Shown: positions 12,672 to 64,000 of the stretch, in pieces
How the letters are laid out: each line of letters begins with the position of its first letter
Position numbering within the stretch: position 1 is the stretch's first letter
From: Pararhizobium capsulatum DSM 1112
GTDB lineage: Bacteria > Pseudomonadota > Alphaproteobacteria > Rhizobiales > Rhizobiaceae
Length of the DNA stretch: 64,000 nt
Assembly: GCF_030814475.1 (NCBI RefSeq)
Contig: NZ_JAUSVF010000001.1
Coordinates: forward strand, 4,063,001 to 4,127,000
Reading direction: 5' to 3'
Position numbers and translations under genes: made by a program
The notes under the pieces: generated by a model
The model's input: the letters and a program-made list of their open reading frames with translations, nothing else
Databases searched by the model: none
What the model was told of the DNA's origin: nothing

Positions 12672-14123
12672 ATGGCAGAAACCACGTATCCGGTTCACGG
12701 CGAAATCACCGGCCCGATCGTCATGATCGGCTTCGGCTCGATCGGTCGCGGCACCCTGCCGCTGATCGAACGCCACTTCAAGTTCGACAAGAGCCGGATG
12801 GTTGTCATCGACCCGCGCGAAGACGCTGGTGATATGGAAATTCTCGCCAGGCACGGCGTTCGCCACATCAAGGCACATGTCACCAAGGACAACTACAAGG
12901 AACTGCTCAAGCCGCTGCTCACCGAAGGCGAAGGCCAGGGCTTCTGCGTCAACCTGTCGGTCGATACCGGCTCGCTGGACCTGATCAAGCTCTGCCGCAA
13001 GCTCGACGTGCTCTATATCGATACCGTCATCGAACCATGGCTCGGCTTCTATTTCGACAAGAGCATGAAGAACTCGGAGCGCACCAACTATGCGCTGCGC
13101 GAAACCCTCCGCAAGGAAAAGGCCAAGAACCCGGGCGGCACGACTGCCGTTTCCACCTGCGGCGCAAACCCGGGCATGGTCTCGTGGTTCGTGAAGCAAG
13201 CGCTGGTCAATCTCGCCAAGGATCTCGAACTGAAGTTCGAAGAGCCGGACCAGAACGACCGCGAAGGCTGGGCCAAGCTGATGAAGAAGGTTGGCGTCAA
13301 GGGCATCCACATTGCCGAGCGCGACACCCAGCTGACCAAGAACCCGAAGCCGCTCAACGTCTTCTGGAACACATGGTCGGTCGAAGGCTTCATCTCGGAG
13401 GGCCTGCAGCCGGCCGAACTCGGCTGGGGCACCCATGAAAACTGGATGCCGAAGAACGCCAAGAAGCACAAGAAGGGCTGCCAGGCGGCAATCTATCTCG
13501 AGCAGCCGGGCGCCAACACGCGTGTTCGTACCTGGTGCCCGACCCCCGGCCCGCAATACGGCTTCCTCGTTACCCATAACGAGTCGATCTCGATCGCCGA
13601 TTACTACACGGTCAAGGATAGGGATGGCGACGTCAGCTTCCGCCCGACCTGCCATTACGCCTACCATCCCGCCAATGACGCCGTTCTGTCGCTGCATGAA
13701 ATGTTCGGCAACGGCGGCAATGCCCAGCCGGTTCACCACGTCCTCGACGAGAACGAGCTTGTCGAAGGCCTCGACGAACTCGGCGTGTTGCTCTACGGCC
13801 ACGACAAGAATGCCTACTGGTACGGTTCGCGCCTGTCGCTGGAGGAAACCCGCCGCATCGCGCCTTACCAGAACGCAACCGGCCTGCAGGTGACCTCGGC
13901 GGTTCTCTCCGGCATGGTCTGGGCACTGGAAAACCCGAAGGCCGGCATCGTCGAAGCCGACGAGGTCGACTACAAGCGCTGCCTCGAAGTGCAGACGCCC
14001 TATCTCGGCCCGGTCGAAGGTCATTACACCGACTGGACGCCGCTCGAAGGTCGCCCGGGCCTGTTCCCGGAAGAGCTCGACGAGAAGGATCCGTGGCAGT
14101 TCAAGAACATTCTCGTTCGCTAA
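12672..14123 (+). CDS. hss: Homospermidine synthase
   Basis: NAD-dependent enzyme making sym-homospermidine, the main triamine of many rhizobia, from putrescine or from spermidine plus putrescine. The 483-residue protein starts GPIVMIGFGSIGRGTLP, a Rossmann NAD site near residues 15-30, followed by MVVIDPRED. Its central block TCGANPGMVSWFVKQAL and the later GCQAAIYLEQPGANTRV are typical of the saccharopine-dehydrogenase-like Hss family. The start at 12672 has the site aggagaa upstream. A strong terminator follows at 14151-14175. Homospermidine is tied to acid and salt tolerance in the family, which is general knowledge, not visible here. Confidence 0.95.
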   Translation: MAETTYPVHGEITGPIVMIGFGSIGRGTLPLIERHFKFDKSRMVVIDPREDAGDMEILARHGVRHIKAHVTKDNYKELLKPLLTEGEGQGFCVNLSVDTGSLDLIKLCRKLDVLYIDTVIEPWLGFYFDKSMKNSERTNYALRETLRKEKAKNPGGTTAVSTCGANPGMVSWFVKQALVNLAKDLELKFEEPDQNDREGWAKLMKKVGVKGIHIAERDTQLTKNPKPLNVFWNTWSVEGFISEGLQPAELGWGTHENWMPKNAKKHKKGCQAAIYLEQPGANTRVRTWCPTPGPQYGFLVTHNESISIADYYTVKDRDGDVSFRPTCHYAYHPANDAVLSLHEMFGNGGNAQPVHHVLDENELVEGLDELGVLLYGHDKNAYWYGSRLSLEETRRIAPYQNATGLQVTSAVLSGMVWALENPKAGIVEADEVDYKRCLEVQTPYLGPVEGHYTDWTPLEGRPGLFPEELDEKDPWQFKNILVR

Positions 14124-37972: not shown

Positions 37973-38053
37973 TACAGTCACTTGTGGCTGTAAATACCCT
38001 CCTTGGGTGTTTCCTCCCTAGACTTCAACCGCGCCCAGTGCGCGGTTTTTTTT
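37973..38053 (+). ncRNA. mmgR: MmgR / suhB-family small RNA (alpha-r8)
   Basis: An 80-base RNA with the features of the alphaproteobacterial suhB (Rfam) / alpha-r8 family, whose Sinorhizobium member MmgR limits polyhydroxybutyrate granules. It begins with hairpin ACAGTCA-CTTG-TGGCTGT, then ACCC-TCCTT-GGGT with an anti-Shine-Dalgarno CCTCCTT, the single-stranded signature TTTCCTCCCT, and a terminator stem ACCGCGC/GCGCGGT ending in eight Ts. It lies beside hisN, an IMPase-family (SuhB-like) gene, the context that gave the family its name. The rest of the 37665-38094 gap holds no gene that I can see. Confidence 0.88.
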
Positions 38054-38094
38054 GCTTTCACGGGCAAAGAATAGGTGGGGAAAGGCGCGGATTT

Positions 38095-47520: not shown

Positions 47521-50500
47521 ATGGCGATCAAGGCTGCGATCTATCATCTCACCCACTATCAGTATGACAAGCCGGTCCGTCTCGGGCCACAAATCATCCG
47601 GCTCAAACCGGCCGCCCATTCCAAGACGAAGGTTATCAGCCATTCGCTGCGTGTTTCCCCCGCCAATCATTTTGTGACGCTGCAGCAGGACCCGTACGGT
47701 AACTACCTCGCCCGCTATGTCTTTCCCGATCCGGTGACGGAACTGAAGGTCGAGGTCGATCTCGTCGCCGACATGACGGTGTATAACCCCTTCGATTTCT
47801 TCATCGAGGAAGAAGCCGAAACCTGGCCCTTTGAATATGCGGAAGAAATTCGCGACGACCTGAAGATCTACATGAAGGCTGAGCCGGCCGGGCCGGCGCT
47901 GCAGGCCTATCTCGACCAGATCGACCGCACGCCCGAGCGCACGGTGGATTTCATTGTTGGCCTGAACGCGCGGCTGCAGCAGGCGGTCAACTACGTGATC
48001 CGCATGGAGCCGGGCGTCCAGACACCGGAACAGACGTTGACACTGGCGCTCGGTTCCTGCCGCGATTCCAGCTGGCTTCTCGTCCAGATTCTGCGTCATC
48101 TGGGTCTCGCCGCCCGTTTCGTCTCCGGCTACCTCATGCAGCTTGCACCCGATCTCAAGGCGCTCGACGGCCCCTCCGGCACCGAAGTCGATTTCACCGA
48201 TCTGCATGCCTGGTGCGAGGTCTATATTCCGGGCGCCGGCTGGATCGGGCTTGATCCGACCTCTGGCCTGCTCACCGGCGAAAGCCACATCCCGCTTGCC
48301 GCCACGCCGCATTTCCGCAACGCCGCCCCGATCTCTGGCGGCCTCTATGGCGATGCAAACACGACTTTCGCCTTCGACATGAAGGTTTCGCGCGTCGCCG
48401 AGCACCCGCGCATCACCAAGCCGTTCTCGGACGAAAGCTGGGAGGCGTTGAATGCGGTTGGCGATTATGTCGATCGGGTTCTGCACGGCGCCGATGTGCG
48501 CCTCACCATGGGTGGGGAGCCGACATTTGTCTCCATCGATGATTTCGAATCGGGGGAATGGAACACCGACGCTGTCGGGCCAACAAAACGCGAAAAGGCC
48601 GATGAACTGATCCGGCGCCTGCGCGAGCGTTTCGCGCCCGGCGGCTTTCTCCACTATGGTCAGGGCAAATGGTATCCCGGCGAAAGCCTGCCGCGCTGGA
48701 CCTTTTCGCTTTACTGGCGCAAGGACGGCAAGCCGATCTGGCACAATCCCGACCTGATCGCCGCCGAAGGCAAGGACACCCAGGTGACCGCCAAGGAGGC
48801 GGAGGCCCTGATTGCCGGTATCGCCGCGGAACTCGATATCGAACAGGATATGGTCATCCCCGCCTTCGAGGATCCGGCCGAGTGGATCATCAAGGAAGGC
48901 AGCCTTCCCGAAAATGTCGATCCGTCCAATTCCAAACTGGAAAGCCCGGAAGAACGCGCCCGTATCGCCAAGGTGTTCGAGCGCGGGCTGACGACCCCGA
49001 CCGGCTATATTCTGCCGGTACAGGCATGGAATGCGAAGGCCGATGGCCAGAAATGGATTTCCGAGAAATGGCGCACCCGGCGCGGAAAGATATTCCTGAT
49101 CCCCGGCGATAGCCCGATCGGCTTCCGCATGCCGCTCGGCACCCTGCCCTACGTGCCGCCATCGCAATATCCGTATATTCATGAGGCCGATCCATCGATC
49201 GAGCGCGACGACCTACCCGACTATGGCGCACCGGCGCGTGCGCTGGCGGAAGCATCAAGAAAGGCCGCTGCGGAAGCGCGCCAGAAACGCGTCGAGCAGG
49301 TGCTTGAGGCAGCGAATGCCGACATTCGTGGCGCAGTGCGCACCGCCATGAGCGTGGAACCGCGCGATGGCCGGCTCTGTGTGTTCATGCCGCCGGTCGA
49401 GCGGATCGAGGATTATCTCGACCTGATCGCCGCCGCCGAAAAGGCTGCGGCCGATCTCGGCCTGCCGATCCATATTGAAGGTTATTCGCCGCCACAGGAC
49501 GAACGCATCAACGTCATGCGCGTCGCCCCCGATCCCGGCGTCATCGAGGTCAACATCCACCCCGCCTCCAACTGGAAGGACTGCGTCGAGATCACCACGG
49601 CCATCTACGAGGAAGCGAGGCTCACGCGCCTGGGCGCCGACAAGTTCATGATCGATGGCCGCCACACCGGCACCGGCGGCGGCAACCATGTCGTCGTTGG
49701 CGGCAACAATCCCAACAACAGTCCGTTCTTGCGCCGCCCGGACCTGCTGAAAAGCCTGATTTTGCACTGGCAGCGCCACCCGTCCCTGTCGTACCTTTTC
49801 TCCGGCATGTTCATCGGCCCGACCAGCCAGGCGCCCCGCATCGACGAAGCGCGCCACGACACGCTCTACGAGATGGAAATCGCGATGGCGCAGGTTCCAC
49901 TGCCCGGCATGGCGCAGGCGCCCCTGCCGTGGATGGTGGACCGCCTGTTCCGAAATCTGTTGACCGACGTTACCGGCAACACCCACCGCTCGGAAATCTG
50001 CATCGACAAGCTGTTTTCGCCGGACGGCCCGACCGGCCGCCTCGGGCTCGTGGAATTCCGTGGCTTCGAGATGCCGCCGAATGCCCGCATGAGCCTTGCC
50101 CAGCAATTGCTGGTGCGTGCCCTCATTGCCCGCTTCTGGCAGAACCCGGCCGATGGCGGCCTCGTTCGTTGGGGCACGACCCTGCACGACCGCTTCATGC
50201 TGCCGCATTATGTCTGGCAGGATTTCCTCGACGTGCTTGCTGACCTGAGGAGCAATGGCTTCGACATCAGGTCCGAGTGGTTCGAGGCGCAGCTTGAGTT
50301 CCGTTTCCCCTTCTGCGGCGAGGTCGAATACGAAGGCGCCAAGCTGGAACTACGACAGGCGCTCGAGCCCTGGCACGTCATGGGTGAACAGGGCGCTGTC
50401 GGCGGCACGGTACGCTATGTCGACAGTTCGGTCGAACGCCTGCAGGTCAAACTCGAAACCGCCAATCCCGAACGCTATACGGTCGCTTGCAACGGCCGGC

Positions 50501-50853
50501 CAATGCCGCTCAGAGCAACCGGCGCATCGGCCACGGCGGTTGCTGGCGTACGCTACAAGGCCTGGCAGCCGGCGTCCGGTTTGCATCCCGTTCTACCTGT
50601 TAACACACCGCTTACATTCGATATTTATGATACATGGTCGAGGCGTTCGATCGGCGGCTGCATCTATCATGTTGCCCATCCGGGCGGACGCAGTTACGAC
50701 ACGTTCCCGGTCAACGGCAACGAGGCGGAGGCCCGCAGACTGGCGCGTTTCGAGCCCTGGGGGCACACCCCCGGTGGTTATCCCCTCACCCCGGAGACCA
50801 TATCGAAGGAGTTTCCCCTGACGCTCGATCTCAGGCGTCCGGCAGGGTTATAG
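47521..50853 (+). CDS. Transglutaminase-like and DUF2126 fusion protein
   Basis: A 1110-residue cytoplasmic protein. The N-terminal region (about 1-300) is a transglutaminase-like domain with the catalytic triad visible: Cys180 in [11 protein letters not shown], the histidine in DLHAWCEVY and the aspartate in IGLDPTSG. The remainder is DUF2126 (COG4196), with [28 protein letters not shown] and [20 protein letters not shown]. Comparative genomics places this architecture in operons with circularly permuted ATP-grasp and alpha-E proteins, predicted to modify or ligate peptides. The next gene starts five bases after its stop. Ribosome-binding site gaggggtaaag. No signal peptide. Confidence 0.9.
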
Positions 50854-50858
50854 GCATA

Positions 50859-53273
50859 ATGGCAAACAAGCAGACCATCGAAGCGGCGACACAGAAAAAC
50901 CGGATCACAGATGATCCGGTTTTCGGCTATAGGGCCCTGCCCGGCATCGCCGATGAAATGGTCGATATCAACGGCAATGTGCGGCCGGTCTGGCAACAGT
51001 TGCTCGCCAATATCGGGCGCATGGACGAGACGGAGCTTTCCAACCGTTTCGCCCGCGCCGATCGCTATCTGCGCGATGCAGGGGTTTTTTACCGCGCCTA
51101 TGGCAGCAAGGAAAACTCCGAGCGTAGCTGGCCCCTGTCGCATGTGCCCGTCATGATCGATGAACGGGAGTGGTCGGCTCTCAGCAAAGGACTGGTGCAG
51201 CGCGCCGACCTTCTGGAGCGATTGGCCTCCGATCTCTACGGCCCCAATCGGCTGGTGGCCGAGGGTATTGTTCCTCCCGCACTTGTCGCGGGAAATCCTG
51301 AGTTCCTGCGCCCGATGGTGGGGGTAAAACCCGCCGACGGTCATTTCCTGCACTTCTGCTCCTTCGAGATCGGCCGCGGCCCTGACGGCAACTGGTGGGT
51401 TCTCTCTGATCGCACCGAAGCCCCTTCCGGCGCCGGCTTCGCGCTTGAAAACCGGGTGGCAACCACACGCGCCTTTTCCGATCTTTATGCCGAAACCCAT
51501 GTGCATCGTCTCGCCGGCTTTTTCGGCGCTTTCCGCGACATGCTGCAATCGCGCAAGCGCCATCCGGACGACCGGATCGCCGTGCTTTCGCCGGGCCTTG
51601 CCAACGAAACCTATTTCGAACACGCCTATATCGCCCGTTATCTCGGCTTCATGCTGCTTGAGGGTGAGGATCTCACGGTGCTCGACGATCGCGTCATGGT
51701 TCGCACCGTTGCGGGGTTGAAGCCCGTCGGCGTTCTCTGGCGCCGGCTGGATGCCGCCTTCGCCGACCCGCTGGAACTCAACCAGGGATCCCACATCGGT
51801 ACGCCCGGTCTTGTAGAAGCGCTGCGGGCCGGCTCCGTCACGATCGTCAACGCATTGGGTTCGGGTATCCTCGAAACGAGGGCTTTTCTGGCATTCATGC
51901 CCGTGATCTGCCGGCAGTTGCTGGGTGAGGATCTGCTCCTCCCAAGCATTGCGACATGGTGGTGCGGCCAACAGCCGGAACGTGATCACGTTGCGGGCAA
52001 CATCGAAAAGATGGTGATTGGCCCTGCCTATTCGACGCGGCCTTTCTTCGACGACAACGCCCAATCCGTTCTCGGCTCGTCGCTGCGCGATACCGCCAAG
52101 CTTTCAGTCGCTGACTGGTTGAAGACCGATGGTGCCAAGCTTGTCGGCCAGGAAGCCGTTACACTCTCCACAACACCCGCCTGGATCAACGGACGGCTAA
52201 CCCCGCGACCGATGAGCTTGCGCGTCTACGTCGCCCGCACGCGCGACGGCTGGCAAGTCATGCCCGGCGGCTTTGCCCGCATCGGCAGCGGCGCAGATGC
52301 GGCCGCCATCGCCATGCAGGCTGGCGGTTCGGCTGCCGATGTGTGGATCGTCAGCGACAAGCCGGTAGAACGTACGACGCTGTTGCCGCCGGAGGAAAAC
52401 TTCATCCGCACCATGCCCGGAAGCTTGCCGAGCCGGGCGGCCGACAACCTTTTCTGGCTCGGCCGCTACATCGAGCGGGCGGAAGGGGCGCTGCGCATCC
52501 TGCGTGCCTGGAATGGCCGCTTTGCCGAGACGGCAGACAGCGGCATGCCGCTGCTCAAGGATATCTCGACCTATCTCGCGGCCCTCGACATCGACACCAA
52601 GCAAGCGGTTCCCGACAGCCTGGTCGCCAATATCAACAGCGCGCTCTTCAGCGCCAGCAACATTCGCGACCGCTTCTCTGCCGATGGCTGGCTGGCACTC
52701 AATGACCTCGCCAAGACAGCGCGCAAGTTCCAGGCAACGGTGGAAGTCGGCGATGACGCGACCCACGCGATGACCGTTCTGCTGCGCAAGCTCGCAGGCT
52801 TTGCCGGTCTCGTGCACGAAAACATGTATCGCTTCACCGGCTGGCGGTTCCTGTCGATCGGCCGCTATCTGGAACGCGGATTGCACATGACCCGGCTTCT
52901 CGGCCACATGTCAGGCGAAGACGCGCCGGACGGAGCCTATGACATGTTGCTCGAAATCGGCGACAGCGTCATGACCCATCGTCGACGCTACAACGTCAAC
53001 ACTGCGTCCCTCACCGTGACGGACCTTTTGGCGCTCGATCCGCTCAATCCGCGCTCGGTGCTCTACCAGTTGAACGAGATCAAGACGGAAGTCGAGCAAC
53101 TGCCCAATGCCTACGGTAACGGCCAGATGTCGTCCTTCTACCGCGAGGCTATGCGCCTGCATGCGGGGCTTGCCGTGATGACGGCGGACGGGATGAATGG
53201 GACGGTTTACAAGAAGCTGGAACAGGAGCTCGAACGCTTTTCCGATATTCTTGCCCGGACGTATCTCGGCTGA
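50859..53273 (+). CDS. Circularly permuted ATP-grasp and alpha-E domain fusion
   Basis: An 804-residue protein with two parts. The first (about 20-470) is a circularly permuted ATP-grasp enzyme, predicted to form amide bonds: PVFGYRALPGIADEMVD, FFGAFRDMLQSRK-type core, LGFMLLEGEDLTVLDDRVMVRT, and SIATWWCGQQPE. The second (about 500-804) is the helical alpha-E domain: LPSRAADNLFWLGRYIERAEGALR and LGHMSGEDAPDGAYDMLLEI. In many genomes these are two genes; here they are fused. The start at 50859 is five bases after the DUF2126 gene. Substrate unknown. Confidence 0.92.
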   Translation: MANKQTIEAATQKNRITDDPVFGYRALPGIADEMVDINGNVRPVWQQLLANIGRMDETELSNRFARADRYLRDAGVFYRAYGSKENSERSWPLSHVPVMIDEREWSALSKGLVQRADLLERLASDLYGPNRLVAEGIVPPALVAGNPEFLRPMVGVKPADGHFLHFCSFEIGRGPDGNWWVLSDRTEAPSGAGFALENRVATTRAFSDLYAETHVHRLAGFFGAFRDMLQSRKRHPDDRIAVLSPGLANETYFEHAYIARYLGFMLLEGEDLTVLDDRVMVRTVAGLKPVGVLWRRLDAAFADPLELNQGSHIGTPGLVEALRAGSVTIVNALGSGILETRAFLAFMPVICRQLLGEDLLLPSIATWWCGQQPERDHVAGNIEKMVIGPAYSTRPFFDDNAQSVLGSSLRDTAKLSVADWLKTDGAKLVGQEAVTLSTTPAWINGRLTPRPMSLRVYVARTRDGWQVMPGGFARIGSGADAAAIAMQAGGSAADVWIVSDKPVERTTLLPPEENFIRTMPGSLPSRAADNLFWLGRYIERAEGALRILRAWNGRFAETADSGMPLLKDISTYLAALDIDTKQAVPDSLVANINSALFSASNIRDRFSADGWLALNDLAKTARKFQATVEVGDDATHAMTVLLRKLAGFAGLVHENMYRFTGWRFLSIGRYLERGLHMTRLLGHMSGEDAPDGAYDMLLEIGDSVMTHRRRYNVNTASLTVTDLLALDPLNPRSVLYQLNEIKTEVEQLPNAYGNGQMSSFYREAMRLHAGLAVMTADGMNGTVYKKLEQELERFSDILARTYLG

Positions 53274-53350
53274 GCCTTACGTTTCCGGCACGATTCCGCT
53301 TGTCGAGGGAATCGGATAGGTTCGCCGCACACAGGTCACCCAGGACATTC

Positions 53351-54229
53351 ATGCTCTACGACATCAACCTCACGATCACGTACACCTACGAGGTTCCAGC
53401 TTCCGGCGGCCGCCACGTCGTCCGCGTTCTCCCCCTTTCGTTGCCCAATCGTCAGCGGCTCGTGGCGGGAACCGTGAGCTTCAAACCGGCTCCTGAGGAA
53501 CGCAGCGACAGCGTCGATTTCTTTGCCAATCCGGCAACCTCGATCGTCTTTCGATCCGCCCACGACAAGCTGGTGATCCGCATGCAGGCACGCGTGCAGC
53601 TTGACATCCAGCCACTTACCGCCGATTTTTCACCACCGCTTTCGGATTTTCCCGCCGAGATCGCCAATATCTGGTCGACCGCACCGGACTCCCCCCACCA
53701 CTTTCTCGGTCAAAGCCCCCTGCTTCCCGAGGATCCCTTGATCGCCGCATATACGCTTTCCATCGTCAAACCCGGCATGACCATCCGCCAGATTGCCACC
53801 GCAATCTGCGAGCGCATCCATCGCGATTTCACCTATGACCCGAAGGCGACGACGGTCGAGACCCCGCCTCGCGAGGCCTTCAAGCTGAAGCGCGGCGTGT
53901 GCCAGGACTTTACCCACGTGATGATCACGGCGCTGCGAAGCCTCGGCATTCCCGCCGGTTACGTCAGCGGTTTCCTGCGCACCATCCCGCCGCCCGGCAA
54001 GGAGCGGCTTGAAGGGGCGGATGCGATGCACGCATGGGTCCGTTTCTGGTGCGGGCGCGCGGAAGGGTGGATGGAACTCGACCCGACCAATAATATTTTT
54101 GCAGGCGCGGACCATATCGTCGTCGGCCACGGACGTGACTATAGCGACGTCGCACCGGTCATCGGTGTGCTGAAAAGCTACGGATCCCATGAGACGGAGC
54201 AGGCCGTCGACGTGCTGCCGCTCGGCTGA
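53351..54229 (+). CDS. Transglutaminase-like cysteine protein
   Basis: A 292-residue COG1305 protein. The transglutaminase N-terminal domain (MLYDINLTITYTYEVPASGGRH) is followed by the catalytic core with Cys in LKRGVCQDFTHVMITALRSLGIPAGYVSGFL, histidine in AMHAWVRFWCG and aspartate in MELDPTNN. It is the third member of the DUF2126/ATP-grasp/alpha-E operon (77 bases after the ATP-grasp gene). Such enzymes hydrolyse or cross-link peptide amides and may act on the product of the ATP-grasp step. The ATG at 53351 has no perfect ribosome-binding site but matches the family start. Confidence 0.9.
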   Translation: MLYDINLTITYTYEVPASGGRHVVRVLPLSLPNRQRLVAGTVSFKPAPEERSDSVDFFANPATSIVFRSAHDKLVIRMQARVQLDIQPLTADFSPPLSDFPAEIANIWSTAPDSPHHFLGQSPLLPEDPLIAAYTLSIVKPGMTIRQIATAICERIHRDFTYDPKATTVETPPREAFKLKRGVCQDFTHVMITALRSLGIPAGYVSGFLRTIPPPGKERLEGADAMHAWVRFWCGRAEGWMELDPTNNIFAGADHIVVGHGRDYSDVAPVIGVLKSYGSHETEQAVDVLPLG

Positions 54230-54398
54230 TCCAGAATGGTAGGATGCGCCGTCTCCTTTTCGCACAGGCGAGTGCGGCGAGGGTCCATACTTTCCGAGTA
54301 TTGCAGGCTATTGCATAAAATTTGAGCGAAATCGCAAACGAGGTCGAAAGTTTCGGCTGCTAATTTACGCCCATCGGCAATGAATTCCGTGGGTGAAC

Positions 54399-55634
54399 AT
54401 GATGTTGAAGCAACCAAAAATCAGGATTTCCGGCGCGCGACTGTTGAGCGACCGAAAGGGCAATTTTGGTATTATGGCTGCGATTGCGCTGCCGGTTATC
54501 CTTGCAACAGGTGGCGTCGCCATCGACGCGACCAACCTCATCATGGCCAAGAACCACCTGCAGGACGCGACGGACTCTGCGGCTCTGGCCGCCTCGTCCG
54601 CGCTCGTCAACCAGAACATCTCGATTGCAGACGCCAAGCTGCTGGCCGCCAACTACCTGAAGGCCCAGATGTATAACTGGAATTCTTCCGGAACAACGGA
54701 CAAAGAGGCAAAAGAACTAGCCCAGGAGTTTGCGTCAAATACGGCGGTTGACATCAAGGAAGTTGCCGGGCTCGGCAACAACAAGAATTTCTATGTCGAC
54801 GTCTCGACCAAATTCGATGTCGCGCTCAATCCGCTCACGCAGATCATCGGCCAGAAAACGGCATCCGTCAGTTCGCGCAGCAAATCCGAGGCTTCGACCG
54901 AAGCCAAAAACGCGCTTTCGATGTATCTGGTGCTCGATCAGTCCGGGTCGATGGGAGAAAATACCGCGACGGTCAACCCGGACGCCCCGACCAAGCAGGA
55001 AAGTTATACCTGCGGCAAGAAGACTTGCGTTCGCACCGTGGATAATTACCTGACAAAGATTGCAGCGCTGAAGCTTGCGACTGCAAATCTGCTGACGCAG
55101 CTCAAGAACGCAGACACCACATCATCACTGGTTCGCACCGGTGCCGTGTCCTACAGCTCGAAGATGATGACGCCCACCGCGCTTGCCTGGGGTGTGACCG
55201 GCGTCCAGACCTATGTCAATGCGCTGCCGGCCAGCGGCAGCACGGATTCGAGCGCTGCTTTCGCCAAGGCCTATACGGATGTCTCAGCCTCTACTGAGAA
55301 CACTGCACACAAGAACAAGAACGGCCAGGTCCCGACCAAATACATCGTCTTCATGACAGACGGCGACAACAATTACTACAACAACAAATCCACCAGCACC
55401 TCGGGTGACCAGTCGGATACTGCGACCCGGAAATCCTGCGACGATGCCCGCAAGGCCGGCATTCAGGTCTATACGATCGCGTTCATGGCGCCCACCCGCG
55501 GCCAGACACTGCTGAAGTATTGCGCAACGTCGACGGACCATTATTTCGCTGCGGAAAATGCCAACGAGCTGTCCGATGCATTTAAATACATCGGTGAAAA
55601 GGCGTCCAACATGATGGTCCGCCTGACCCAGTAA
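54399..55634 (+). CDS. TadG-like VWA-domain surface protein
   Basis: A 411-residue TadE/TadG-type protein. After a short positively charged head a hydrophobic helix (FGIMAAIALPVILATGGVAIDATNL) holds the TadG-type pilin-like N-terminus. The C-terminal half is a von Willebrand factor A domain with the metal site DQSGSMGE and FMTDGDNNYY. The motifs fit minor components of Flp/Tad pili or surface adhesins. No tad operon is close by; it is a stand-alone gene closed by a terminator. The start could be GTG 54393, ATG 54399 or ATG 54402. Confidence 0.82.
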   Translation: MMLKQPKIRISGARLLSDRKGNFGIMAAIALPVILATGGVAIDATNLIMAKNHLQDATDSAALAASSALVNQNISIADAKLLAANYLKAQMYNWNSSGTTDKEAKELAQEFASNTAVDIKEVAGLGNNKNFYVDVSTKFDVALNPLTQIIGQKTASVSSRSKSEASTEAKNALSMYLVLDQSGSMGENTATVNPDAPTKQESYTCGKKTCVRTVDNYLTKIAALKLATANLLTQLKNADTTSSLVRTGAVSYSSKMMTPTALAWGVTGVQTYVNALPASGSTDSSAAFAKAYTDVSASTENTAHKNKNGQVPTKYIVFMTDGDNNYYNNKSTSTSGDQSDTATRKSCDDARKAGIQVYTIAFMAPTRGQTLLKYCATSTDHYFAAENANELSDAFKYIGEKASNMMVRLTQ

Positions 55635-55689: not shown

Positions 55690-55868
55690 TTGTCGGCGTA
55701 TTCCGGGCGATAGCTATTCACACCGCCTTCGAAAGCGCACGCGCCGGAAATTTCATCCCCTTGAAAACATTTATTGCAAGCGCTTCGCATCGGTGCATAA
55801 ATTGCTCATATGCTCCGTTGGCGTTCGCCTCCGGTTTCCCGACAGGCAAAAGAAGGAACGATCTTTTC

Positions 55869-58330
55869 ATGGTGAACCGTCAGTCGAATGAGGCGATCCC
55901 AAGCGCCGCACCGCGAGCGTCGAGTTCAAGCGTACTGGCACAGGAAATCATCGAGCGTCTGACCTATCGTATCGGCAAGGATCCGAAGGTCGCAAAACCG
56001 CACGACTGGCTGACCGCTGCAATTCTCGTGGTACGCGACCGCATCACCGACAACTGGATGGAATCCACCCGGCAGGTTTATGCGACCAACGCCAAGCGCG
56101 TTTATTATCTATCGCTTGAATTCCTCATCGGCCGTCTGATGCGCGATGCGGTCACCAATATCGGTCTGATGGACGAATTGCGCGAGGCGCTTGCATCCTT
56201 CGGCGTCGATATCAACATCATCGCCGGCCTCGAACCGGACGCCGCCCTCGGCAATGGCGGTCTTGGCCGTCTCGCAGCCTGCTTCATGGAATCCATGGCG
56301 ACCGTCGATATCCCGGCTTACGGCTACGGTATTCGCTATGTCCATGGCCTCTTCCGTCAGCAGATGGCGGATGGCTGGCAGGTGGAGCTGCCGGAAACCT
56401 GGCTCGCCCACGGCAATCCATGGGAGTTCGAACGCCGCGAGAGCTCCTACGAAATCGGCTTCGGTGGCTCGGTCGAAACCGTCAACATCGACGAAGAGAT
56501 CACCCGTTACGTCTGGAAGCCGGCCGATCGTGTCATCGCCACTGCCTGCGATACGCCGGTCGTCGGCTGGCGCGGCAAGCGGACCAATACGCTGCGGCTC
56601 TGGACAGCGCATCCGATCGACCCGATCCTGCTCGACGCCTTCAATGCCGGCGACCATATCGGCGCGCTACGCGAAAGCAACAAGGCGGAAAGCCTCGCCC
56701 GCGTGCTTTATCCGGCCGACGCCACGCCTGCCGGCCAGGAACTGCGCCTGCGCCAGGAGTTCTTCTTCTCGTCCGCCTCGCTCCAGGACATTCTGCGGCG
56801 CCACCTGCAGCAATATCCCGATTTCACATCGCTGCCCGACAAGGTGGCGATCCAGCTGAATGATACGCACCCCGCGGTCTCGGTGTCCGAGCTCATCCGG
56901 CTTCTGATGGATATTCACGGGCTCGATTTCGAAACAGCCTGGGATATCACCCGCCACACATTCGCCTATACCAACCACACGCTTCTGCCGGAAGCTCTGG
57001 AAACCTGGCCGGTGCCGCTGTTTGAGCGGCTTCTGCCGCGCCACATGCAGATCGTCTATGCGATCAACGCCAAGATCCTGCGGGAAGCCCGCAAGGAAAA
57101 GGGCCTGAGCGACGCGGAAGTCCGCAGCATTTCGCTGATCGACGAAAGCGGCGAACGGCGCGTGCGCATGGGCAACCTCGCCTTCGTCGGCTCCCATTCG
57201 GTCAACGGCGTCTCGGCCCTTCACACGGAACTGATGAAGGAGACCGTTTTTGCCGATCTCCACAAGCTTTATCCAGCGCGCATCAACAACAAGACCAACG
57301 GCATTACGCCCCGTCGTTGGCTGATGCAGTGCAACCCTGATCTGTTCGGCCTGATCCGCGAATCCATTGGCGACGAGTTCATGGACAATGCGGAGGCTCT
57401 GCAGGCTCTCGACGCCTTTGCCGACAAGAAGGACTTCCAGGAAAAATTCGCTGCAATCAAACGCAGCAACAAGGTCAAACTGGCGCAGCTTGTGCAATCA
57501 CGGATGGGCGTCCGTCTTGATCCGTCGGCAATGTTCGACATCCAGATCAAGCGCATCCACGAATACAAACGCCAGCTTCTGAACATCGTCGAAGCGGTGG
57601 CGCTTTACGATCAGATCCGTTCGCACCCCGAGCTGGATTGGGTTCCCCGCGTAAAACTCTTCGCGGGCAAGGCGGCGCCGAGCTATCACAACGCCAAGCT
57701 GATCGTCAAGCTCGCCAACGACGTCGCCAAGGTGATCAACAACGACCCATCCGTGCGTGGTTTGCTGAAGGTTGTATTCGTTCCGAACTACAACGTCTCG
57801 CTTGCCGAAATCATTGTGCCGGCCGCCGACCTCTCAGAACAAATTTCGACTGCCGGCATGGAAGCTTCGGGAACCGGGAACATGAAGTTCGCGTTAAACG
57901 GAGCGCTGACCATCGGCACGCTGGACGGCGCCAATGTCGAGATGCGTGACTGGGTGGGGGAAGAGAACATCAAGATCTTCGGAATGACCGCTGAGGAAGT
58001 CGCCAAGGTTCGCGCGGAAGGTCATAATCCCCGCGCCATCATCGAGCAGTCCAGCGAACTTTCGCAGGCGCTGCAGGCGATAGCTTCCGGCGTATTCTCT
58101 CCGGACGACCGCAATCGCTTTGCCGGCCTCATCGACGGCCTCTACAATCACGACTGGTTCATGGTCGCAGCCGATTTCGATGCCTATTCCAAGGCACAGC
58201 GCGAGATCGACACGATCTGGACGGATACTGGAAGCTGGTATTCCAAGACGATCCGCAACACTGCCCGGATGGGCTGGTTCTCATCCGATCGCACCATCCG
58301 GCAATATGCCGGGGAAATCTGGAGAGCTGG

Positions 58331-58334
<4 letters not shown>
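55869..58334 (+). CDS. glgP: Glycogen phosphorylase
   Basis: Breaks glycogen by phosphorolysis to glucose-1-phosphate. The 821-residue protein has YYLSLEFLIGRL, EPDAALGNGGLGRLAACFMES, NDTHPAVSVSEL and the PLP site EASGTGNMKFALNGALTIGTLDGANVE. I start at the ATG at 55869 (MVNRQSNE) after aaggaacg, which gives the family length; the longer frame from 55761 does not. The stop overlaps glgB (ATGA at 58331-58334), so glgP and glgB are translationally coupled. Confidence 0.94.
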
Positions 58335-60529
<2,195 letters not shown>

Positions 60530-60628
60530 TAGCCCGGTCACGCCAAGGCTGGGTATGAAGACACAATAATAGGGTAACATCCGGCACCAACCGGACTTTG
60601 CCCAGGAAGAATTTTCGGGAGGAAACCA

Positions 60629-61888
60629 ATGGAAAAAAGATCGCAGCCCCTTGCCCGTGATGCCATGGCTTATGTTCTTGCCGGCGGTCGGGGAAGCCGC
60701 CTGAAGGAACTGACCGACCGACGCGCAAAGCCCGCCGTTTATTTCGGCGGCAAGGCGCGCATCATCGACTTTGCCCTTTCCAATGCACTCAATTCCGGTA
60801 TCCGCCGCATCGGGGTCGCGACGCAGTACAAGGCGCACTCGCTGATCCGCCACCTGCAGCGGGGCTGGAACTTCCTGCGCCCCGAGCGAAATGAGAGCTT
60901 CGACGTCCTGCCGGCCAGCCAGCGCGTTTCCGAAACGCAGTGGTACGAAGGCACGGCCGACGCCGTCTACCAGAACATCGACATCATCGAGGATCATGGC
61001 GTCGAATATATGGTCATCCTTGCCGGCGACCATATCTACAAGATGGACTACGAATTGATGCTGCAGCAGCACGTCGATTCCGGTGCCGACGTGACCATCG
61101 GCTGCCTTGAAGTGCCGCGCATGGAAGCGACCGGCTTCGGCGTCATGCATGTCGACGAAAAAGACCAGATCATCGCCTTTGTCGAGAAGCCGGCGGACCC
61201 GCCGGGGATTCCCGGCAATCCGACGATGGCGCTCGCCTCGATGGGCATCTATGTTTTCCACACCAAGTTCCTGATGGATCTTCTGCGCCGCGATGCCGCC
61301 GATCCGGCCTCCAGCCGCGACTTCGGCAAGGATATCATTCCCTACATCGTCCAGAACGGCAAAGCCGTCGCCCATCGGTTCAGCGAGTCCTGCGTGCGCT
61401 CGGATTTCGAGCGCGAGGCCTACTGGCGCGATGTCGGCACGATCGACGCCTACTGGCAGGCCAACATTGACCTGACCCACGTCACGCCGGAACTCGACAT
61501 CTACGACAGCACCTGGCCGATCTGGACTTTCGCGGAAATCAAGCCGCCAGCTAAATTCGTCCATGATGACGAAAACCGCCGCGGGTCTGCAACGTCCTCG
61601 CTGGTTTCGGGCGATTGCATCATTTCGGGTGCTTCGCTGAACCGCAGTATGTTGTTTACGGGCGTTCGCGTGAACTCCTTCTCGCGGCTCGAAAACGCGG
61701 TCATCCTGCCGAATGTTCGCATCGGCCGCCATGCTCAGCTAAACAACGTGGTGATTGACGCGCGCGTCGTCATTCCGGAAGGCCTGGTGGTCGGTGATGA
61801 TCCCGAATTCGACGCCAAGCGTTTCCGTCGCTCCGAAAACGGTATCTGCCTGATTACCCAGGCGATGATCGACAAGCTGGGCATGTAG
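60629..61888 (+). CDS. glgC: Glucose-1-phosphate adenylyltransferase
   Basis: Makes ADP-glucose, the committed step of glycogen synthesis, under allosteric control. The 419-residue protein has [70 protein letters not shown], and SGCIISG-like (here [11 protein letters not shown]) with the beta-helix ending [12 protein letters not shown]. The agglutinate of arginine/lysine residues near the N-terminus ([10 protein letters not shown]) is the activator-site region in rhizobial enzymes, in which fructose-6-phosphate and pyruvate are activators. The start follows cgggaggaaacca. Gap to glgA two bases. Confidence 0.95.
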
Positions 61889-61890
61889 CA

Positions 61891-64000
<2,110 letters not shown>

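Follow-up and report, generated by a model that had tools for sequence, protein, structure and literature searches.

The closest described relatives of the locus considered here are the Anbu operons of Pseudomonas putida (PP_2685-PP_2688) and Yersinia bercovieri. In the Yersinia study, the ATP-grasp protein of the operon released phosphate from ATP. Peptidase activity of Anbu was not seen with any substrate tried, and co-expression of the four operon proteins revealed neither a specific complex nor a specific interaction (PMC6376114). In P. putida, PP_2686, which encodes a transglutaminase-type (TG) protein, PP_2687 and PP_2688 were induced 11- to 15-fold in the wild type under nitrogen limitation in one study (PMC7801951), and PP_2685 (Anbu) and PP_2688 were up on nitrate versus ammonium (log2 4.4 and 4.0) in another (PMC8050072). 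By operon order, PP_2687 and PP_2688 would be the alpha-E and ATP-grasp proteins. A prediction of peptide synthesis is credited to Iyer et al. 2009 in PMC5666114. The locus itself lies in a window of 64,000 nucleotides of Pararhizobium capsulatum DSM 1112, the whole stretch of DNA analysed, and consists of three adjacent genes encoding a TG protein fused to DUF2126 (gene 1), an ATP-grasp-shaped domain joined to alpha-E (gene 2) and a second TG protein (gene 3). Iyer et al. 2009 reportedly predicted DUF2126 amidoligase systems, to judge from citing papers and the Pfam label; these share the families of the cassette and the general prediction of chemistry at amide bonds. The Anbu operon likewise has the same ATP-grasp, alpha-E and TG families. 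Relative to it, the cassette has TG-DUF2126 in addition, carries ATP-grasp and alpha-E in one chain and lacks catalytic residues in its ATP-grasp, and Anbu was not found in the genome. The published data that we found concern this core operon only, not DUF2126.

In our view the cassette would be an accessory module of an ATP-grasp/alpha-E/TG amide-ligation system of the Anbu-operon type, a reading to which we give an even chance. Its basis is gene content, residue losses, selection and co-occurrence on the side of sequence, and on the side of prediction a glutamine synthetase (GS) fold; from these we infer ligase activity, a docking role, joint action with another operon and the substrate class. 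An earlier note on this DNA had placed the three open reading frames (ORFs) and both TG motif triplets where we locate them, and its link to the ATP-grasp, alpha-E, TG and Anbu families was right; Pfam confirms the domains of the three genes. Gene 1 scores 1347 bits for DUF2126 (PF09899; cut-off 27), with PF08379 and PF01841 in the same chain, and gene 2 matches CP_ATPgrasp_2 with 463 bits and Alpha-E with 199 bits (cut-off 20.8). The ATP-grasp half of gene 2 has the fold of circularly permuted ATP-grasp proteins, similar to glutathionylspermidine synthetase (GspS) and GSS. Gaps of 5 bp and 77 bp separate gene 1 from gene 2 and gene 2 from gene 3.

One line of evidence comes from gene 2. We compared 47 diverse fused copies (38 in one joint alignment and 9 further ones) with free-standing ATP-grasps in 23 rows, which hold the copy of this genome twice and thus represent 22 distinct sequences. 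The equivalent of Glu180 is present in 1 of the 47 fused copies and that of Asn182 in none, whereas both are kept in 22/22 free-standing proteins. The free-standing proteins keep the phosphate Lys and the Gly loop as well, likewise in 22/22, and the Gly loop is lost from the fused ones. Gene 2 of the window reads S183-D184-R185 at the Glu-x-Asn site, has G388 at the phosphate-Lys site and lacks GGYG; Arg occupies the Asn site in 198/198 rows of closer relatives (194 distinct, the window's own included). The ATP-grasp half of gene 2 thus looks catalytically dead, and the claim of the earlier note that it is a ligase is probably wrong, because the catalytic residues of its free-standing relatives are absent. 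The alpha-E residues E17, R18, E167 and R168 are kept in 37, 38, 37 and 38 of the 38 aligned fused copies. Gene 2 is under purifying selection; in one genome pair the ratio of non-synonymous to synonymous polymorphism (pN/pS) was 0.27 for the fused ATP-grasp and 0.14 for the free-standing one. Loss of the Glu/Asn pair, a putative metal site, and of the Gly loop with retention of the glutamate-arginine (ER) motifs of alpha-E is the element that may be new here.

In order to place the cassette among relatives, we used 249 genomes drawn from the phylum Pseudomonadota, some of them incomplete. Free-standing and fused ATP-grasps were assigned from open-frame length and neighbours, motifs having been read only in the 22 free-standing and 47 fused copies above. 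Distances were counted with one place per split match, excluding an unclassified third ATP-grasp match in G069 and two matches below cut-off (G002, G212). DUF2126 occurs in 71/249 genomes and alpha-E in 132/249. The fusion, which had been considered special to this copy, is the standard form, since 64 of the 71 DUF2126 genomes have a fused gene no more than 15 kb from DUF2126. Among the others, G191 carries it on a contig other than that of DUF2126, and in G049 and G097 DUF2126 lies at contig ends with no fused gene within 15 kb. The fused gene was missing from 3 of the 40 DUF2126 stretches examined (L052, L067, L068). Within the best 80 named loci, mostly from Rhizobiales, 74 exceed 20 kb, and 73 of those 74 hold genes 2 and 3 together with gene 1; gene order and strand are identical in all 37 loci listed in detail. 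The protein database search scored at least 7998 candidates, all matching. Several DUF2126 proteins (P0012, P0060, P0070, P0274 and others) are deposited as IMP dehydrogenase and appear to be misnamed.

The cassette is not self-contained: a free-standing ATP-grasp is encoded in 71/71 DUF2126 genomes, and in 39 of them it is no more than 15 kb from DUF2126. It is also found in 73/74 genomes bearing the fused form, the exception (G149) being a genome 74% complete whose fused gene sits on a contig of 4.3 kb. Of the 61 alpha-E genomes without DUF2126, 60 have the free-standing form and 9 the fused one. In G126 both stand in one gene row (L239), in the order free ATP-grasp, alpha-E, fused gene and TG. 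In P. capsulatum, an operon at 3.55 Mb has the row of intact ATP-grasp, alpha-E and TG that characterizes the Anbu operon; the window cassette does not. A further ORF of this genome encodes a fourth protein with a transglutaminase core.

DUF2126 is predicted to have the fold of the GS superfamily, and is likely the ligase of the cassette because of this predicted fold. Residues E333, E676, N678, H723, R840, E845 and R847 are invariant in 71/71, and may be placed in a GS-type site. The Cys-His-Asp triads of the TG domains are invariant in 41/41 (gene 1) and 39/39 (gene 3) aligned sequences, all rows being distinct. In the mechanism that we propose, the DUF2126 domain would activate a carboxylate with ATP and then join an amine to it, while the TG domain of gene 1 and the stand-alone TG protein encoded by gene 3 would cut or transfer the same type of amide. 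Gene 2 would be a non-catalytic partner, its ATP-grasp-shaped domain, carrying the ER-motif alpha-E, serving to dock or regulate. The module would cooperate with an ATP-grasp that is catalytically intact, and with alpha-E and TG, all encoded at another place (here at 3.55 Mb). To this core it would add another ligase, of GS fold, as well as two thiol enzymes and a partner made of pseudo-ATP-grasp and alpha-E.

Two known systems offer parallels. The Pup ligase PafA is a GS-superfamily ligase tied to the mycobacterial proteasome, and a similar combination of ligase and proteasome-like protease would recur where Anbu lies near DUF2126 (16/41 genomes with both), but Anbu was not found in this genome. 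The make-and-break layout resembles that of the E. coli glutathionylspermidine synthetase/amidase (PDB 2io7, 2io8); in the cassette, however, a GS fold is predicted for the thiol-fused ligase, and the ATP-grasp appears catalytically inactive.

Several observations weigh against the accessory-module reading. Lys388 remains Lys in 9 of the 38 fused copies, and the fused alpha-E is altered at W44, R95, R174 and W199, positions kept in free-standing alpha-E. That E180, N182 and K388 are metal and phosphate ligands is our assumption, based on GspS and glutathione synthetase, and the fused domain might bind ATP by other means. For DUF2126, alignment with GCS2 by hhalign was not significant (P 0.42), no GS match in Foldseek was as good as E 0.001, and the mean predicted local distance difference test (pLDDT) of the gene 1 model is 74.9, with low values at the conserved loops 709-719, 762-777 and 814-821. 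A literature search found no biochemistry of DUF2126 or of the fused protein. Some 0.56 Mb separates the intact operon from the cassette, so joint action is inferred. The module is not rigid either: G036, G064, G076 and G212, all from one family, have DUF2126 but no fused match, which contig ends do not explain, and the fused gene occurs without DUF2126 in the 9 genomes mentioned above. The co-occurrence of alpha-E with DUF2126 (71/71 genomes versus 61/178 without DUF2126; Fisher 1e-25) is uncorrected for kinship. As for expression, the P. putida study reports PP_2686, PP_2687 and PP_2688 14- to 20-fold up in an rpoN mutant under nitrogen limitation and PP_2685 only 1.12-fold in the wild type (PMC7801951), and the sequence close upstream of the cassette and of the 3.55 Mb operon showed no sigma-54-like site.

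A bolder form of the accessory-module reading, which we advance only tentatively, is that a dedicated pseudo-ATP-grasp (usually with Arg in place of the metal-site Asn) joined to an alpha-E that retains its ER motifs pairs in trans with the intact ATP-grasp/alpha-E, as in the gene row of G126, and, together with the GS-fold ligase-thiol fusion, forms a two-ligase machine for reversible amide conjugation across Pseudomonadota, the pseudoenzyme controlling the active ATP-grasp. Roughly half the sampled genomes carry families linked to alpha-E, yet we found no substrate described, and the statement of the earlier note that no product is known for the cassette holds. Should the fused chain prove to be a pseudoenzyme partner, there would be a concrete reason to study these proteins together, and DUF2126 and the intact ATP-grasp would be the candidate ligases.

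The alternative that survives best, although we consider it unlikely, is a hydrolase set for nitrogen salvage, in which, when nitrogen is limiting, the TG domains would act as amidases or isopeptidases that free amino nitrogen from conjugates, the ligases doing no more than charging the store. The induction of core-operon genes under nitrogen limitation and of PP_2685 and PP_2688 on nitrate fits this view, as do the listing of Anbu (COG3484) in a predicted sigma-54 cluster (PMC12316311) and the correlation of alpha-E, TG and ATP-grasp domains with urea domains in marine metagenomes (PMC3597751). However, these expression data concern the core operon rather than DUF2126, PP_2685 hardly responded in the wild type, the rpoN mutant still induced the other genes, and the cassettes here have no sigma-54-like site that we could find close upstream.

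Protease partners bear on a second alternative. With a profile built from 5 sequences, no Anbu match was found in the whole P. capsulatum genome; the same profile matches 84/249 genomes, 5 of them of the same family, and the absence of Anbu is therefore supported. A complete Anbu operon of identical gene content elsewhere in the genome, which would have spoken against a distinct cassette, was not found. The sole PF00227 match is HslV, beside an ORF read as HslU, and 3' of the 3.55 Mb operon there is no Anbu, a transporter-like ORF (by reading) beginning about 100 bp later. The gene next to the cassette is also not Anbu, as had been noted. The premise that Anbu should adjoin a DUF2126 cassette is weak, and its description as the usual neighbour overstated, because Anbu mostly lies near the free-standing ATP-grasp (within 15 kb in 32/41 genomes having both Anbu and DUF2126, against 16/41 for DUF2126) and is unmatched in 30/71 DUF2126 genomes. 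In all 5 same-family genomes it is no more than 15 kb from the free-standing ATP-grasp, and in the two of these that were read gene by gene (L195, L199), which belong to a different genus, it directly follows ATP-grasp, alpha-E and TG. One Anbu genome (G094) lacks alpha-E.

The zinc peptidase Peptidase_Mx (PF15887) could serve the wider system as a further protease partner. It occurs in 34/249 genomes, 33 of which have alpha-E (the exception is G086). In 8/22 genomes it is found no more than 15 kb from DUF2126, exclusion of fragmentary matches having dropped G200 and G217 from the 24 with both, and in 2/9 genomes without DUF2126 it is equally close to alpha-E (L185 and L186 are among the loci read). 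These ten genomes span seven taxonomic families, and ATP-grasp/alpha-E or DUF2126 genes adjoin the peptidase in them. A tagging of proteins for proteolysis, with Peptidase_Mx replacing Anbu, could be built on this linkage and on the single copy in this genome, and seems to us more doubtful still than nitrogen salvage. That copy lies far from any cassette gene, 23/71 DUF2126 genomes (some incomplete) match neither protease, and Peptidase_Mx is no simple replacement since 25 of its 34 genomes also have Anbu. Equally improbable is the view of the earlier note that the cassette alone performs peptide synthesis or cross-linking with the fused ATP-grasp as an active ligase, given a Gly loop lost, Asn gone from 47/47 and Glu from 46/47 fused copies, and a free-standing ATP-grasp in every DUF2126 genome.

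Table 1. Positions of the cassette, its domains and other features (window numbering for the cassette and its neighbours; genome and locus numbering for distant features; starts of genes 2 and 3 are refined)
Feature	Position	Strand	Remarks
Gene 1, TG-DUF2126	47521..50853	+	1110 aa, intact, ATG start
Bact_transglu_N of gene 1	47536..47769	+	PF08379, residues 6-83
Transglut_core of gene 1	47908..48258	+	PF01841; triad C180 (48058), H229 (48205), D245 (48253)
DUF2126 domain of gene 1	48355..50835	+	GS-like fold predicted; likely ligase
Gene 2, ATP-grasp-shaped domain and alpha-E	50859..53273	+	804 aa, one chain, ATG at 50859
Circularly permuted ATP-grasp domain of gene 2	51147..52283	+	catalytic residues lost
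S183-D184-R185 of gene 2	51405..51413	+	joint alignment; Glu-Asp-Asn in free-standing ATP-grasps
Alpha-E domain of gene 2	52425..53267	+	PF04168; ER motifs E539, R540, E672, R673
Gene 3, TG	53351..54229	+	292 aa, ATG; PF08379 and PF01841; triad C184 (53900), H227 (54029), D244 (54080)
Tad-domain and VWA protein	54393-55634		neighbour of gene 3; Pfam; not Anbu
Glycogen genes	55761-63330		glgP, glgB, glgC, glgA, read from ORFs
mmgR small RNA	37989-38060		Rfam RF00519, 60 bits
Saccharopine-dehydrogenase-like protein	12672-14123
Separate operon, 3.55 Mb	G000:C1:3549817-3553084 (L003:7818-11085)		intact free-standing ATP-grasp (L003:7818-9302), alpha-E, TG
Fourth transglutaminase-core protein	G000:C1:3685577-3685858 (L006:1261-2262)	-	333 aa ORF
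Peptidase_Mx	G000:C1:1650909-1651655 (L175:6619-7707)		no cassette gene nearby

The VWA gene is common to 40 of the 74 long named loci and glycogen genes (glgP and glgB homologues) to 43; both lie outside the cassette unit. In the window, the glycogen genes stand in a row 3' of the cassette. The window also contains the small RNA mmgR, a nitrogen-related regulator of rhizobial storage granules, and a saccharopine-dehydrogenase-like protein; in rhizobia such proteins can be the carboxyspermidine dehydrogenase of polyamine synthesis.

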